A stretch of DNA of 63,477 nucleotides, taken from the NCBI GenBank assembly GCA_913056335.1, contig CAJXLX010000003.1:1-63477 (forward strand), written 5' to 3'. The translations under genes were made by a program, and so were the position numbers. Below the pieces are notes generated by a model, which was not told the DNA's origin, searched no databases, and was given only the letters and a program-made list of their open reading frames with translations. Source of the stretch: an uncultured Rhodothermaceae bacterium. Its GTDB lineage: Bacteria > Bacteroidota > Rhodothermia > Rhodothermales > Salinibacteraceae. Positions 16,208 through 52,386 of this stretch are shown one piece after another. Within the stretch, counting starts at the first letter, position 1, and each line of letters begins with the position of its first letter.

Positions 16208-16579
16208 GCAGCGCGCAGATAACAGATTGTCCCCAATCCGGTTGTAGCATCACAGTATTGCTTCTCTACGGGGCTCTGGATCTGCTTCGTCAGTCGACCT
16301 TTGGCCTCGCGTTGGGGGAGTGGATAGACGTTAAGTGATCGCTCCCCTGATAAAAATCTTTCCTGGGGCGAACGGTCCCGACAGCAGTCGGGACAGGTTC
16401 CTCCGTTCGCTCCCGTCAGCTTCCCCGGGGACGTCCGCGCCGGACGGCGCTCCCAGTCTACGCCTGATAGTATGTTTAACAGTCACTTAGCGTTAAACCG
16501 CTAACGCATTGGGGATGGCTCTTTGTTCACCCGCTCTCCCTTCCACACCTCCACACCAACGAAGCATGCGGAGTGGGCA
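16208..16579. other. Gene-free stretch with dispersed repeat copy 2
   Basis: A short TTGTCCCCAATC string at about 16228-16239 recurs near 52210. The rest is the repeat at 16318-16500 and flanks without coding sequence. Confidence 0.6.
16318..16500 (+). repeat. Dispersed hairpin repeat, copy 2 (most complete)
   Basis: Left end GTGGATAGACGTTAAGTGAT, then CTCCCCTGATAAA, an internal hairpin GGGGCGAACGG...CCGTTCGCTCCC that also holds an insert (GTCCCGACAGCAGTCGGGAC), the core GGGGACGTCCGCGCC...CTCCCAGTCTACGCC, and a right end TATGTTTAACAGTCACTTAG. This copy defines the order of parts seen in the others. Confidence 0.8.
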
Positions 16580-25275: not shown

Positions 25276-25290
25276 CAGATTATGGTAGCG

Positions 25291-25450
25291 GCTCAATGCT
25301 AAGTGATGGACCAAATATACCAGTAGCCGGAGACTGGGAGCGCTACCCGGCACGTACGTCTCCGGCGGGGCTGATGGGAGCGAATGGGAGACCGTTCGCC
25401 CCAGGGAAGGTTTTTATCAGGGAAATGACCACTTAACGTCTACCCACTAC
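25291..25450 (-). repeat. Dispersed hairpin repeat, copy 3
   Basis: Reverse orientation: CAATGCTAAGTGATGGA (right end of the element), then GTAGCCGGAGACTGGGAGCG, CGTACGTCTCCGG, the hairpin arm GACCGTTCGCCCC, TTTTTATCAGGGAA, and ACCACTTAACGTCTACCCAC (left end). It fills the gap between hpt and the terminator of the reductase gene. Confidence 0.8.
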
Positions 25451-25451
25451 C

Positions 25452-25486
25452 AAAGCAGCCCGCTCCATATCGGAGCAGGCTGCTTT
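25452..25486 (-). terminator. Rho-independent terminator after the quinone-stress operon
   Basis: AAAGCAGCCCGCTCC and GGAGCAGGCTGCTTT form a 15-bp stem with one mismatch around a 5-base loop, about 30 bp past the reductase stop codon on the minus strand. Confidence 0.75.
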
Positions 25487-32207: not shown

Positions 32208-32793
32208 TGCCACGCCAATCCTCATTTTGATGACGCCCCTCATATCAGCCCCTAACGAGCCCTGTGAGGGCGTGCGTCCTGACCGGAGGGAAAAAGTATT
32301 CTTTCGGGTACATGGTTGCCCGATCTCCTCGGTGCGGTAGGCGTCCCGTACGCGCATCCGCGCAATTCGTATCGAGCAGATCAATGGCGCGGTAGTAGAT
32401 AGACGTTATGTGATCGCTCTCCTAATAAACCCGTTCCTGAGGCGAACGGTCCCCCCGTTTGCCTCCGCCGGAGACGTCCGCGCTGAGGGTGCTCCCAGTC
32501 TCCGGCTACAGACCCATGCCTTCCATCACTTAGCATTGAAACGCCACCAATGGCGCGAGTATACTGGTGGAGCGGTTTGGGCACAGGAACTGTTCGAACT
32601 GCGACAGCAGTGCGCATTGACGGATCCACTGAGCCGACGCGAAAGGCACCAACTCGGACACGCATTTCGACAGGTGATACAAGAAACCGGCACGGTGAGC
32701 TGGTCGCACTTGACTTTCAAGCAGCGGACAGCCTACAACGTATTTCGGGACGTGATATACCGGTAGGGGGCGCGTTGCCACGCGATTGCGCTC
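32208..32793. other. Intergenic region with repeat copy 4 and a possible gene remnant
   Basis: It holds the repeat at 32392-32541. Directly after it, on the plus strand, comes a protein-like frame (32546-32766: WAQELFELRQQCALTDPLSR, GHAFRQVIQETG, FKQRTAYNVFRDVIY) that lacks its own start and runs in from the repeat. It may be the tail of a disrupted gene. No family recognised. Confidence 0.4.
32392..32541 (+). repeat. Dispersed hairpin repeat, copy 4
   Basis: TAGTAGATAGACGTTATGTG at the left, CTCCTAATAAACC, GGCGAACGGTCC...CCGTTTGCC, the core GCCGGAGACGTCCGCGC...CTCCCAGTCTCCGGCTAC, and CCTTCCATCACTTAGCATTG at the right. It has all parts, although the right end lacks the GATC. Confidence 0.8.
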
Positions 32794-40497: not shown

Positions 40498-40602
40498 TCC
40501 TGGGGCGAACGGTTCTCCGTTCGCCCCTCACCGGAGACGTCCGCGCCAGGGGCGCTCCCCGTCTCCGGCTACGGGCCTATTTCCTCCATCACTTAGCGCT
40601 GA
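40498..40602 (+). repeat. Dispersed hairpin repeat, copy 5 (left end missing)
   Basis: It starts inside the hairpin (TCCTGGGGCGAACGG / CCGTTCGCCCC), then ACCGGAGACGTCCGCGCC, CTCCCCGTCTCCGGCTAC and ends with TCCATCACTTAGCGCTGAGC. The left terminal GTGGATAGACG part is absent. Confidence 0.8.
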
Positions 40603-40680
40603 GCCCTACCGACAGGTGGAACCGTTGTGCTGGTTATGAGCCCCTGTATCTAACCTTGTTCAACATGAGTAAAGCGGTCA

Positions 40681-48272: not shown

Positions 48273-50180
48273 ATGTCTCGTCTCACCGCCGACCAACGCT
48301 ATCTCTGGAATGAAGGCACCGACTACCAGTGCTACACGTGGATGGGCGCGCAGACCAGCCCGAAGGGGACCTGGTTTCGGGTATGGGCGCCAAACGCCGA
48401 TGCCGTGGCGGTGATGGGCGACTTTAACGACTGGTCGTCGGAAGCGCATCCCATGCGTGATGCAGGAGGCGGACTCTGGGAGGTGCACATTCGCTCGGCT
48501 CAGCCCGGCGCGCGCTACAAGTACCGCCTCAACGCCAATGGCGAAGCGCTCGACCGCACCGACCCGTTCGCGTTTGCGCTGGAGCCGCCCGCCGAGAACA
48601 CGTACGAGGGCATCGCCTCCATCGTGGTCGACCTGGACGACTACACCTGGGCCGATAACGATTGGATGGCCGACCGGTCCGGCCCCGACTCGCTCAATGA
48701 GCCCATTTCCATCTATGAACTGCACTTGGGCTCGTGGCGCCACCAGGCGCCCGGCGAGTCGTACAGCTACCGCGACATTGCCGAGCCGCTGGCCGAGTAC
48801 GTCACCGACATGGGCTATACGCATATCGAGCTTATGCCTGTAGCCGAGCACCCGTACTACGGCTCCTGGGGCTACCAGACGCTGGGCTACTACGCGCCCA
48901 CCTTCCGCTACGGCTCGCCGCAGGACTTCATGCACTTTGTGGATACGATGCATCAGCACGGCATCGGCGTGCTCATGGACTGGGTGCCCGCGCACTTCGC
49001 CACCGACCCGCAGGGCCTGACCTACTTCGACGGCACCCACCTCTTCGCCTACGACGATCCGCAGATGCGCCACCACCCCGACTGGGGCACCTACGTGTTC
49101 GACTACGGACGCAATGGCGTGCGCAATTTCCTCATCGGCAACGCACTCTTCTGGCTCGACTACTACCACATCGATGGCCTTCGGGTGGATGCCGTAGCAT
49201 CGATGCTCTACCGCGATTACTCGCGCGGCACCAACTGGACGCCCAACGAACACGGCGGACGCGAAAACCTCGAAGCGATTCGCCTGCTCCGCGACACCAA
49301 CACACAGGTGTACAAACACTTCCCCGATGCCATGACTATCGCCGAGGAGTCAACGGCCTTTCCGGGTGTCACCAAGCCGGTTGATCATGGCGGACTCGGC
49401 TTCCTCTATAAGTGGAACATGGGGTGGATGAACGACACCCTCGAATACATCGAGAAGGAGCCAATCCACCGCAAGTACCACCACGGCGACTTTACGTGGA
49501 CGCTCAGCTGGGCCTTTTCGGAGCAGTTCATGCTGCCGTTCTCGCACGACGAGGTCGTACACGGCAAAGAGTCGATGTGGGGCAAGATGCCCGGCGACGA
49601 CTGGCAGAAAGCGGCCAACTTGCGTGTGCTCTACACCCATCAGTACGGGCATCCGGGCAAAGTCCTCTCGTTTATGGGCAACGAGTTCGGGCAGCACCAC
49701 GAGTGGAATCATGACGAGTCGATTGAGTGGCACCTGCAAGACAAGCCGCTTCACGCCGGCCTTCAACAGTGGGTGGCCGACCTGAACGCGCTCTACCGCA
49801 GCCGCCCGGCCCTGTGGAACGACGACCGCGACAGCTTCCAGTGGATCCACTACGGCGACCGCGAGCAAAGCGTACTCAGCTACCTGCGCCAGCACGGCGA
49901 CCAAGTGCTCGTGTTCGTCCTCAACATGACACCCGTGGCGCGTACCGACTACCGCGTGGGGCTGCCGCAGGCAGGCACGTGGACCGAGCGCCTCAACAGC
50001 GACGCCGATGTATACGGCGGCAGCGGTGTGGGCAATGCCGGACGCGTAGAGGCGACGGAGAATCCATACCTCGGCCAGCCCGCCTCGGCCTCGATTGTGG
50101 TGCCGCCACTGGGCGCGCTCATTCTTTCTCCTAAAGACCAGGGGGATTGTGATGCCACCCCGAAAACGCCTGCTGGGTGA
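48273..50180 (+). CDS. glgB: 1,4-alpha-glucan branching enzyme
   Basis: 635 residues. It makes alpha-1,6 branches in glycogen. An N-terminal carbohydrate-binding beta-sandwich ([20 protein letters not shown]) leads into the GH13 barrel, with conserved blocks [21 protein letters not shown], nucleophile Asp in [10 protein letters not shown], Glu in [11 protein letters not shown] and transition-state Asp in [10 protein letters not shown]. The all-beta C-terminal domain is present. No glycogen synthase gene is adjacent. It converges with yjbQ across the cassette described below. Confidence 0.97.
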
Positions 50181-50310
50181 GTGGGCGGCGAGGCGTCTCG
50201 CCATGGCTCCAAGCGCGAAGGGAGGCACACAACGCGCCTCCCTTTCTCTGTTTGGGCCCTGCAGGGCGTTGCCGAATACCTCTCTCCGGATCCAACCGTG
50301 CTTCTGCATT

Positions 50311-50350
50311 GGCGCCGGAGACGCCCGCTGCGCTTGCAGTCTCCGGCGCC
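50311..50350. terminator. 12-bp perfect hairpin, probable ancestral glgB/yjbQ terminator
   Basis: GGCGCCGGAGAC pairs with GTCTCCGGCGCC around a 16-base loop. Its CCGGAGAC/GTCTCCGG wording is that of the dispersed repeat core. It sits 130 bp past glgB and 2 bp before the yjbQ stop-codon copy, so before insertion it would have separated the convergent glgB and yjbQ genes. Confidence 0.6.
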
Positions 50351-50351
50351 C

Positions 50352-50400
50352 ATCAGGCGTCTGGGCCCATGAGGGTGAGCATGAGCGTGCGGGGGCCGCC
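50352..50400 (-). repeat. 49-bp direct repeat, copy 1 (displaced yjbQ 3' end; att-like)
   Basis: It matches 51535-51583 at 48 of 49 positions. On the minus strand it encodes the last codons of YjbQ (GGPRTLMLTLMGPDA-stop). The single difference is the third base of the proline codon in MGPDA, so the protein sequence is unchanged. Confidence 0.9.
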
Positions 50401-51534
50401 TCTGATGCGCTCCGACCCCTGTGGTATTACGAGCTGAGCCACGATTACAAGTCTGTGTGAAGGAATAAAGGCATGCTTAATTTACTTAGAAGAGTGCAGG
50501 ACTAAGAAATTTATCTTAGCCCAAACTCAATTTTGTTTTTGCGTCGATTATAGTTCCATGCTTTGACTAAGTCCCTCAAAAAAAGATCTTTGCTATCGCG
50601 CATGGAAACTCGATTTGCTTCGGCGGCTTCGCCAGCCTTGCGTGCGAGTTCCTCTGAGTCAACTTTTTCTTGATTCATTATTTCCATCACAGCAATTATA
50701 AACTGCTTTTTATGCGGTAGGCTATTCGAGGGGGAGTGTTTGCGAACAGACACAACCACCTCCGCAGCCCCATGGATTTTGGAGTCGTCGATTGGCCATT
50801 CGAGACTTCCTTTCTTCACGTCGGGAAGAGACATGCCCAACATGTAAGCTGGAACTCCGTACGGAAACTCGTACCGTTTTACAAAATCTTGGTATTTATG
50901 ATAATCCTCATACCCCTTTTGGCAAAAGTTGTGGACATAGTCCTCCAACCCCCAGTTCTTGCTAGTTATATTTAAAGACCTTACTAGTTCGTCTGAGTAG
51001 TTTTCTGTGTATACGCTATAGTAAATAGACAACCCAAGATCTTTGGCAGCTTCAAATCTGTGTTGTCCATCAATGATTACTCCATTGGGATCTACCGTTA
51101 TATGTTGATGAGGAATAAAGCCTCTAGATTCCATTGATTTCTTAATTTTTCTCACATGGCCTTTGCTAATCTCACGATTTGTTTTTGAGAATTGAAACAG
51201 ATCGTAGTTTTTGGTTTCGCGAACCGAGAACCCAACTGTGTTGGTTTCGAGCAAAGGATTGTTATTTCTGCTCATGACTGTCTTCAAAGAAGATGACTAT
51301 GATTTGGAAGCAAGACTATTGATGTCACGGGATTGATGTGAAGAAATTGATTCTTGCACATCTGTACACAAGGAACTGGTATCCAAGCAGGCGCGACAGG
51401 ATGCAAGTCCACCACTCTACGAGCTCTGAAGAAAAGCATCAGAGATTAGAGAAACATAGAGTGCACAACTAATGCACCCTGTAGTATACCGAGCGGGGCG
51501 GGCAAGCGCAAGGAATAGGAAGCCGCTGGCGGGA
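50401..51534. mobile_element. AT-rich single-gene cassette in the yjbQ 3' end
   Basis: It is bounded by the two 49-bp repeats. The interior is visibly AT-richer than the rest of the window, apart from a GC-rich stretch of about 45 bp just before the right repeat. It carries one ParB-like gene (50511-51275) and no recognisable integrase or transposase. The layout of intact gene, cassette, then displaced gene end is what site-specific integration into a gene's 3' end leaves behind. Confidence 0.65.
50511..51275 (-). CDS. ParB/DGQHR-domain protein, phage-like
   Basis: 254 residues from ATG 51275 (TTG 51287 would add four). The middle holds the ParB-like core, with VDPNGVIIDGQHRFEAAKDL as its signature, after an N-terminal stretch with KTNREISKGHVRKIKKSMES. 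The second half is helical (NITSKNWGLEDYVHNFCQKG, LRDLVKAWNYNRRKNKIEF). Proteins of this build are found in phages and mobile elements, where they are thought to bind DNA or act as ParB-type nucleases/CTPases; no function is proven. It is rich in Lys and Asn with AT-rich codons, unlike the acidic neighbours, so it is recently acquired. Confidence 0.8.
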   Translation of the reverse strand: MSRNNNPLLETNTVGFSVRETKNYDLFQFSKTNREISKGHVRKIKKSMESRGFIPHQHITVDPNGVIIDGQHRFEAAKDLGLSIYYSVYTENYSDELVRSLNITSKNWGLEDYVHNFCQKGYEDYHKYQDFVKRYEFPYGVPAYMLGMSLPDVKKGSLEWPIDDSKIHGAAEVVVSVRKHSPSNSLPHKKQFIIAVMEIMNQEKVDSEELARKAGEAAEANRVSMRDSKDLFLRDLVKAWNYNRRKNKIEFGLR

Positions 51535-51583
51535 ATCAGGCGTCGGGGCCCATGAGGGTGAGCATGAGCGTGCGGGGGCCGCC
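51535..51583 (-). repeat. 49-bp direct repeat, copy 2 (within intact yjbQ)
   Basis: This copy forms the current 3' end of the complete yjbQ frame, including its stop codon at 51536-51538. It pairs with 50352-50400. Confidence 0.9.
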
Positions 51584-51964
51584 GTGGTTGCGGTGTTCGC
51601 ACAGGTAGAGGCCCTGCCATGTGCCCAGCGCCAGTGCGCCGTCTTGGACGGGCAGCCACAGGCCGGGGCCGATCAGCACGGCCTTGATGTGGGCGGGCAT
51701 GTCGTCGGGGCCTTCGAGGGTGTGCTGGTAGTAGGGCTGCTCCTCGGGCACCATCTTGTTAAGGTGACGCTCCAGGTCGCCGCGCACGTCGGGGCTGGCG
51801 GCTTCGTTCAGGGCGAGCGAGGCGGAGGTGTGCTGGATGAAGACATGCAGCATGCCCTGCGTGCACTCTTGCAGTTCGTGTAGGGCGTTGGTCACGGTGT
51901 CGGTGATGAGGTGAACGCCGCGAGGATGCGGGTCGAGCGTGAGCGTGCGTTGCGTCCAGTGCAT
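51536..51964 (-). CDS. yjbQ: YjbQ/UPF0047 family protein
   Basis: 142 residues from ATG 51964. A compact family with GVHLITDTVTNALHELQ, a conserved HTSASLALNEAASPDVRGDL block and LGTWQGLYLCEHRNHGG, the His/Glu residues being the likely metal site. E. coli YjbQ has a weak thiamine-phosphate synthase activity; the true role is uncertain. The 3' end has served as an insertion target: a second copy of its last 49 bp lies 1.1 kb downstream. It remains full length. Confidence 0.9.
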   Translation of the reverse strand: MHWTQRTLTLDPHPRGVHLITDTVTNALHELQECTQGMLHVFIQHTSASLALNEAASPDVRGDLERHLNKMVPEEQPYYQHTLEGPDDMPAHIKAVLIGPGLWLPVQDGALALGTWQGLYLCEHRNHGGPRTLMLTLMGPDA

Positions 51965-52386
51965 GCGACGGTTGGTCTGAATGCGGAATGAGAATGGGCA
52001 ATGGGCCTGCGGGAGCCCACACGAAACGAGCCAACGGCGTGGGCACGGGGGCACGGACTGGGCGCGCTGCATCGGGATGATGGAAGCGGAGCCGCCGACC
52101 TTTGGTTTTCCTCTGACTACATGTGAGATGGTTTTAGAACCTGTTTTGATTTCTTAATTTGGGCTCTGAGCGGCTCCGCTGGGCTGGGGCCGAAGGTCAT
52201 GCCCCTGGTGCAAATTGTCCCCAATCTCGGCCCGTAGCCCCGGATACGAACCTTGATCGTGGTCCAATTTTCGCCTCAGCGGCACTCGCTCTCGCCGTCA
52301 AACCAAACCCCAAACAGGTTATTAGAAGATGCCGCACGTTGAACGGGGGACGGTTCGACGCAGAGGCAGCCGTTGGTGCGATTCGG
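51965..52386. other. Gene-free stretch
   Basis: No gene recognised. A TTGTCCCCAATC string near 52210 recurs at 16228. An AT-rich patch (TTTTGATTTCTTAATTTGG) lies near 52142-52160 and may contain the yjbQ promoter. Open frames here give no family match. Confidence 0.4.

Follow-up and report, generated by a model that had tools for sequence, protein, structure and literature searches.

The 63,477-nucleotide stretch of DNA analyzed here (the window), from an uncultured Rhodothermaceae bacterium, contains a foreign insert of about 1.1 kb and low G+C content at positions 50401 to 51480, to which no strand is assigned. Its extent was taken from the GC profile and from the limits of homology, the right edge being the point at which homology to the flank 3' of yjbQ in G001, the sole genome of the same genus in the sample, ends. 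The insert contains a single plausible gene, an open reading frame (ORF) at 50511 to 51275 on the minus strand, which encodes 254 amino acids from an ATG codon and terminates at a TAA codon (50513 to 50511); an alternative TTG start at 51287 would give 258 amino acids. The frame is uninterrupted and contains IIDGQHRFEAAKDLG and SKTNREISKGHVRKIKKSM, the second strand of the same interval (plus) having many stops. The GC fraction falls to 0.37 to 0.47 across the gene, compared with about 0.60 to 0.68 in the flanking DNA. The list of ORFs contained no second plausible ORF and no recombinase gene between 50401 and 51480, and scanning the insert for consensus promoters yielded weak matches only.

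Only host genes lie on either side. Upstream of the DGQHR gene and in the same orientation is yjbQ (UPF0047; 51536 to 52072, minus strand; PF01894, E value of 6e-39), and on the other side lies glgB, encoding 1,4-alpha-glucan branching enzyme (48273 to 50180, plus strand), a convergent gene that is also convergent near yjbQ in relatives. An earlier reading made from the sequence only had placed a gene with these motifs at 50511 to 51275; its coordinates, frame, and motifs stand, with the strand now given as minus. The same reading described the gene as complete, alone, and outside a prophage, which agrees with what was found.

Duplicated end of yjbQ around the insert

The insert is bounded by two 49-bp copies of the 3' end of yjbQ in direct repeat, each on the minus strand. 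The right copy (51535 to 51583) is the end of the intact gene, and the left copy (50352 to 50400) is a detached yjbQ 3' end. The two are identical at 48 of 49 positions, the yjbQ stop codon included, and no such match is expected in shuffled sequence. A direct repeat that duplicates the 3' end of a target gene, as looked for in integrative elements and prophage remnants, is present at this locus. Between glgB and the left copy, and adjoining the latter, is a G+C-rich interspersed hairpin (50308 to 50353, no strand; GGCGCCGGAGAC...GTCTCCGGCGCC), with about 40 weak-to-strong matches in the genome. An interspersed repeat was also seen elsewhere in the window, at 1519 to 1589, 16310 to 16503, 25280 to 25454, 32390 to 32550, and 40531 to 40610; it reaches about 170 bp and is 80 to 92% identical to copies on contigs C13 and C27 of G001.

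In three related genomes (G009, G016, and G006), yjbQ and glgB are close convergent neighbors, separated by about 25 to 150 bp according to the alignment ends, and the intervening DNA in the window is therefore an addition. About 55 bp past yjbQ are common to the window and G001; some of the right flank must therefore be older than another insertion or have come with it. No terminal inverted repeats were found around the insert, and a transposon was rejected on this ground. The core of the 49-bp yjbQ tail was sought in viral contigs as a candidate attP, with no match, and a search of the literature on integration at yjbQ returned nothing useful.

Defined 49-bp repeats around one gene would also fit a minimal nonautonomous mobile element, a unit of about 1.1 kb that attaches at the yjbQ tail and is mobilized in trans. 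This is very unlikely, as the DGQHR gene is present in single copy in its genome, where a search found no further occurrence of the gene or of its flanks, and the unit has no recognizable recombinase-type ends. The least probable account is an assembly artifact, in which two strains were joined at the yjbQ tail. The genome is indeed fragmented (220 contigs, 86% completeness); however, the insert is enclosed by the two repeat copies, each of the flanking genes has its match in G001, and no shared sequence able to mislead an assembler occurs at the 50400 junction.

A divergent member of a phage family with a predicted ParB-like fold

Pfam, NCBIfam, and PDB sequence searches with the window protein returned nothing reliable, and PF02195 did not detect it. 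The PHROGs family phrog_12305 (ParB-like) was matched with an E value of 3e-24 over residues 21 to 247, nearly the whole length, and judged by this match the 254-amino-acid frame is not a chance ORF. When genomes and viruses were first scanned with a single sequence, no relatives came up, and an alignment-based search was adopted for this reason; among viral contigs it identified at least 418 relatives, and among bacterial or archaeal genomes 30. A DNA-level search of plasmids gave none. Each of the 69 aligned family proteins (the window protein and 68 relatives) matches phrog_12305. Residues N33 and R34 and the motif D69-G-Q-H-R73 are invariant among them and are all kept in the window protein, a constancy partly due to the selection of hits, because the search pattern included the DGQHR motif. 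The relatives are numerous and intact, rather than only degenerate ones with a broken DGQHR, the outcome that the sequence-only reading had named as contradicting it. The window protein shares 21 to 31% identity with the relatives used, keeps 32 of 43 conserved columns, and sits on a long branch whose placement in the tree is uncertain. These comparisons make it a divergent addition to a phage family that was already known. GmrSD_N was weakly matched by 21 of the 69 family members and DndB by one, the window protein itself having no Pfam match, and PADLOC gave the window protein a weak type II methyltransferase match (8e-5) over the DGQHR region.

An AlphaFold model made with the family alignment as input (pLDDT of 90.3, pTM of 0.77) has a predicted N-terminal ParB-like domain followed by a predicted C-terminal helical domain. 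The best solved structures found with Foldseek were Myxococcus ParB, PNOB8 ParB-N, and KorB (probability of 0.93 to 1.00), with E values of only 0.003 to 0.05 and low TM-scores; therefore, resemblance to solved ParB proteins is claimed for the N-terminal domain only. Viral ParB/Srx (sulfiredoxin) proteins match the model over nearly its full length (E values of 5e-13 to 1e-6), several with TM-scores of about 0.7. A single-sequence search found no solved structure, and a profile search of solved structures gave weak matches only, with SbnI and sulfiredoxin on top. The earlier assignment to phage-like proteins of ParB/Srx fold was borne out by the phrog_12305 profile and by these structure comparisons.

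The members of phrog_12305, annotated as "ParB-like partition protein" in tailed phages, have the size, DGQHR core, and C-terminal helical region of the window protein. Canonical ParB proteins (TIGR00180, KorB) have in common with it the core of the ParB-CTPase fold around SGERR/DGQHR, and a profile alignment with the true ParB of the same order covered 49 columns only, with SGERR corresponding to DGQHR. The ParA-binding motif LG[KR]GL, present in the true ParB of the genus, is absent from the window protein, in which no ENxxR box, helix-turn-helix, or dimerization domain of ParB could be aligned; where canonical ParB has ENxxR, the window family has LNxxxKNW (a correspondence drawn by eye). 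No parA partner adjoins the gene, its neighbors being yjbQ and glgB. The window protein resembles the nucleotide-binding ParB fold and is not a ParABS partition protein. The D-G-Q-[HQ]-R signature is common to the family and to GmrS and DndB, and the DGQQR motif of GmrS, related to DGQHR, has been proposed to bind nucleoside triphosphate (NTP) (PMC4619093); no HNH nuclease domain or partner of the GmrD type, as in GmrSD type IV restriction, was found in the window protein or its neighbors. In a survey of orphan ParB-CTPase-fold proteins from mobile elements, the proteins bound CTP, ATP, or GTP (Kaljevic et al. 2025, PMC12704722). Like the window protein, these are orphans with no parA and are linked to mobile DNA; that survey names PF02195 as the model of the fold, whereas the window protein is not detected by it.

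Relatives are mostly found in a phage or prophage context, whereas the window copy is chromosomal, with host genes on either side and no phage neighbor. Its position in Streptococcus prophages and the Flavobacterium phage lillamy is within the early region, where it adjoins replication genes, SSB, or primase. Among 120 viral neighbor genes, Erf annealing proteins were the commonest named families, and NinG/Rap, a RecE-like exonuclease, Sak4, Mu Gam, the DnaD loader, and integrases were also present. Among the genes next to bacterial copies are those for DnaB helicase, primase/helicase, DnaC, and further ParB-like proteins. A large terminase (TerL) is encoded by 15 of the 24 carrier virus contigs; many carriers are therefore tailed phages and not phage satellites, a setting that the sequence-only reading had named as one to check for homologs. 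In a phylum sample of 395 genomes, source included, a relative was found in one of the 394 others (G380, 32% identity), close to a C5-methylase gene and a DnaG/primase-type zinc-finger gene in a phage-like early region.

A rival account is that the gene has been domesticated, that is, kept by selection for a stand-alone function such as phage defense, superinfection exclusion, or transcription regulation. The complete frame with all invariant family residues would fit such a role, as would the fold held in common with DndB and GmrS (PMC4619093) and the bacterial relative L174 (5854 to 6738), likewise a lone gene, near a tyrosine recombinase, a DUF4011/MTES_1575 helicase-nuclease, and a TraG-like gene. 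However, no copy was found in any of 59 relatives of the source genome, the window protein has a long branch with only part of the conserved columns kept, and there are no consistent defense neighbors. PADLOC detected mainly methyltransferases among the 120 viral neighbor genes, and with the single case of L174 this indicates no systematic link to defense, a point that the sequence-only reading had named as one to check. That a single AT-rich copy lacking close relatives is intact is not enough to demonstrate selection, and the earlier view that the gene has probably been kept for a function is not upheld. We consider domestication distinctly unlikely.

Integron cassettes in the same slot of a same-genus genome

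In G001, the slot between yjbQ and glgB holds a different insert, which starts with an attI-like site and continues with nine or more attC-bearing cassettes. The attI-like site and cassette array lie directly downstream of yjbQ (C13, 1 to 7990), with no integrase adjoining. The site matches one beside the intact integron integrase gene of this genome, intI, which is on another contig (C2, 147912 to 148856), and the cassette platform at yjbQ may have been served in trans. The glgB-side and yjbQ-side contigs of G001 break at the same repeated sequence. Another array contig carries a 330-bp yjbQ 3' piece with the same attI-like flank among cassettes (C27, 3292 to 3750); over 459 bp it shares 95% identity with the intact locus. 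A pair recognized by eye, which resembles a nucleotidyltransferase/HEPN toxin-antitoxin system (C16, 3454 to 4034) and is apparently frameshifted, separates the last attC from glgB. In the source genome (G000), intI is truncated, with attI-like repeats still adjoining (C4, 7511 to 8160). The yjbQ-glgB gap is an insertion hotspot for foreign DNA in this genus.

To search for attC, a covariance model was built from the genus's own attC sites. In G001 it identified 31 sites; in G000 it identified 12, all outside the window, where default filters gave none. Once the filters were removed, the highest-scoring match close to the insert reached 8.5 bits, inside coding sequence, compared with 31 to 118 bits for the sites listed in G000 and G001. 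No attI-like site was found in the insert. An integron gene cassette was rejected, no attC having been found downstream of the window gene. The description of the insert as a mobile cassette, made in the sequence-only reading, is not established, because neither attC, attI, a recombinase gene, nor inverted-repeat ends were found in it.

A broader role for integron activity was weighed, in which the slot serves the genus as a cassette platform. The ParB-like gene would then be either a cassette that has decayed or a gene captured during rearrangement of an array here, which would have produced the duplicated yjbQ tail. Besides the G001 array and the recurrence of the yjbQ tail with an attI-like site on a second array contig, the cassette orientation of the window gene, first after yjbQ, and the attC sites and truncated intI of the source genome are in keeping with it. 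It is already weakened by the attC search, the best match lying within coding sequence, and by the lack of an attI-like site in the insert. Taking both variants together, we regard arrival through integron activity as possible though unlikely.

Origin and native role of the window gene

The best explanation, to which we give about an even chance, is that the window gene is the residue of a phage or other element that integrated at the 3' end of yjbQ, leaving a ParB/Srx-fold protein behind. The element would have entered by site-specific recombination, duplicating the last 49 bp of yjbQ in the manner of attL and attR, and nearly all of it, the recombinase included, would later have been lost, with the DGQHR gene staying in the insertion hotspot. 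In favor of this are the nearly full-length phrog_12305 match, the many viral relatives with their replication and recombination neighbors, the structural resemblance to ParB/Srx proteins, the 49-bp repeat, the low G+C content, the tight yjbQ-glgB junction in G009, G016, and G006, and the different insert at this place in G001. Against this, no integrase, excisionase, or other phage gene is left. Because of that, and because no viral contig was found with the 49-bp core, it is the repeat by itself that suggests site-specific integration. In addition, the duplicated yjbQ piece in G001 measures 330 bp instead of 49 bp, a difference more in keeping with variable recombination than with a single fixed attachment site; together with the shared 55-bp flank, it gives room for an integron-related rearrangement.

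The protein's job in the phages to which it is native is probably to bind NTP through the DGQHR pocket and, by means of its helical C-terminal domain, to work on phage DNA with the early replication and recombination machinery, the proposed partners being a single-stranded DNA-annealing protein, an exonuclease, and a helicase loader. An NTP-dependent factor acting on phage DNA in replication and recombination is the most likely native role, because of what is known of NTP binding by the ParB fold and GmrS and because of the replication and recombination neighbors in phages. In the present host, the protein may be idle or a minor orphan NTP switch associated with DNA. That an NTPase of ParB fold instead serves the maintenance or movement of its own 1.1-kb mini-element, with a recombinase supplied in trans and the slot also used by integron cassettes, is highly improbable.

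The window gene is most likely a largely ordinary one in an unusual but explicable place. It ties an uncharacterized phage family of ParB fold, one of many, to a defined chromosomal insertion site. A census based on PF02195 would miss this branch, and the yjbQ-glgB gap stands out as a site where foreign DNA has landed more than once in this genus.
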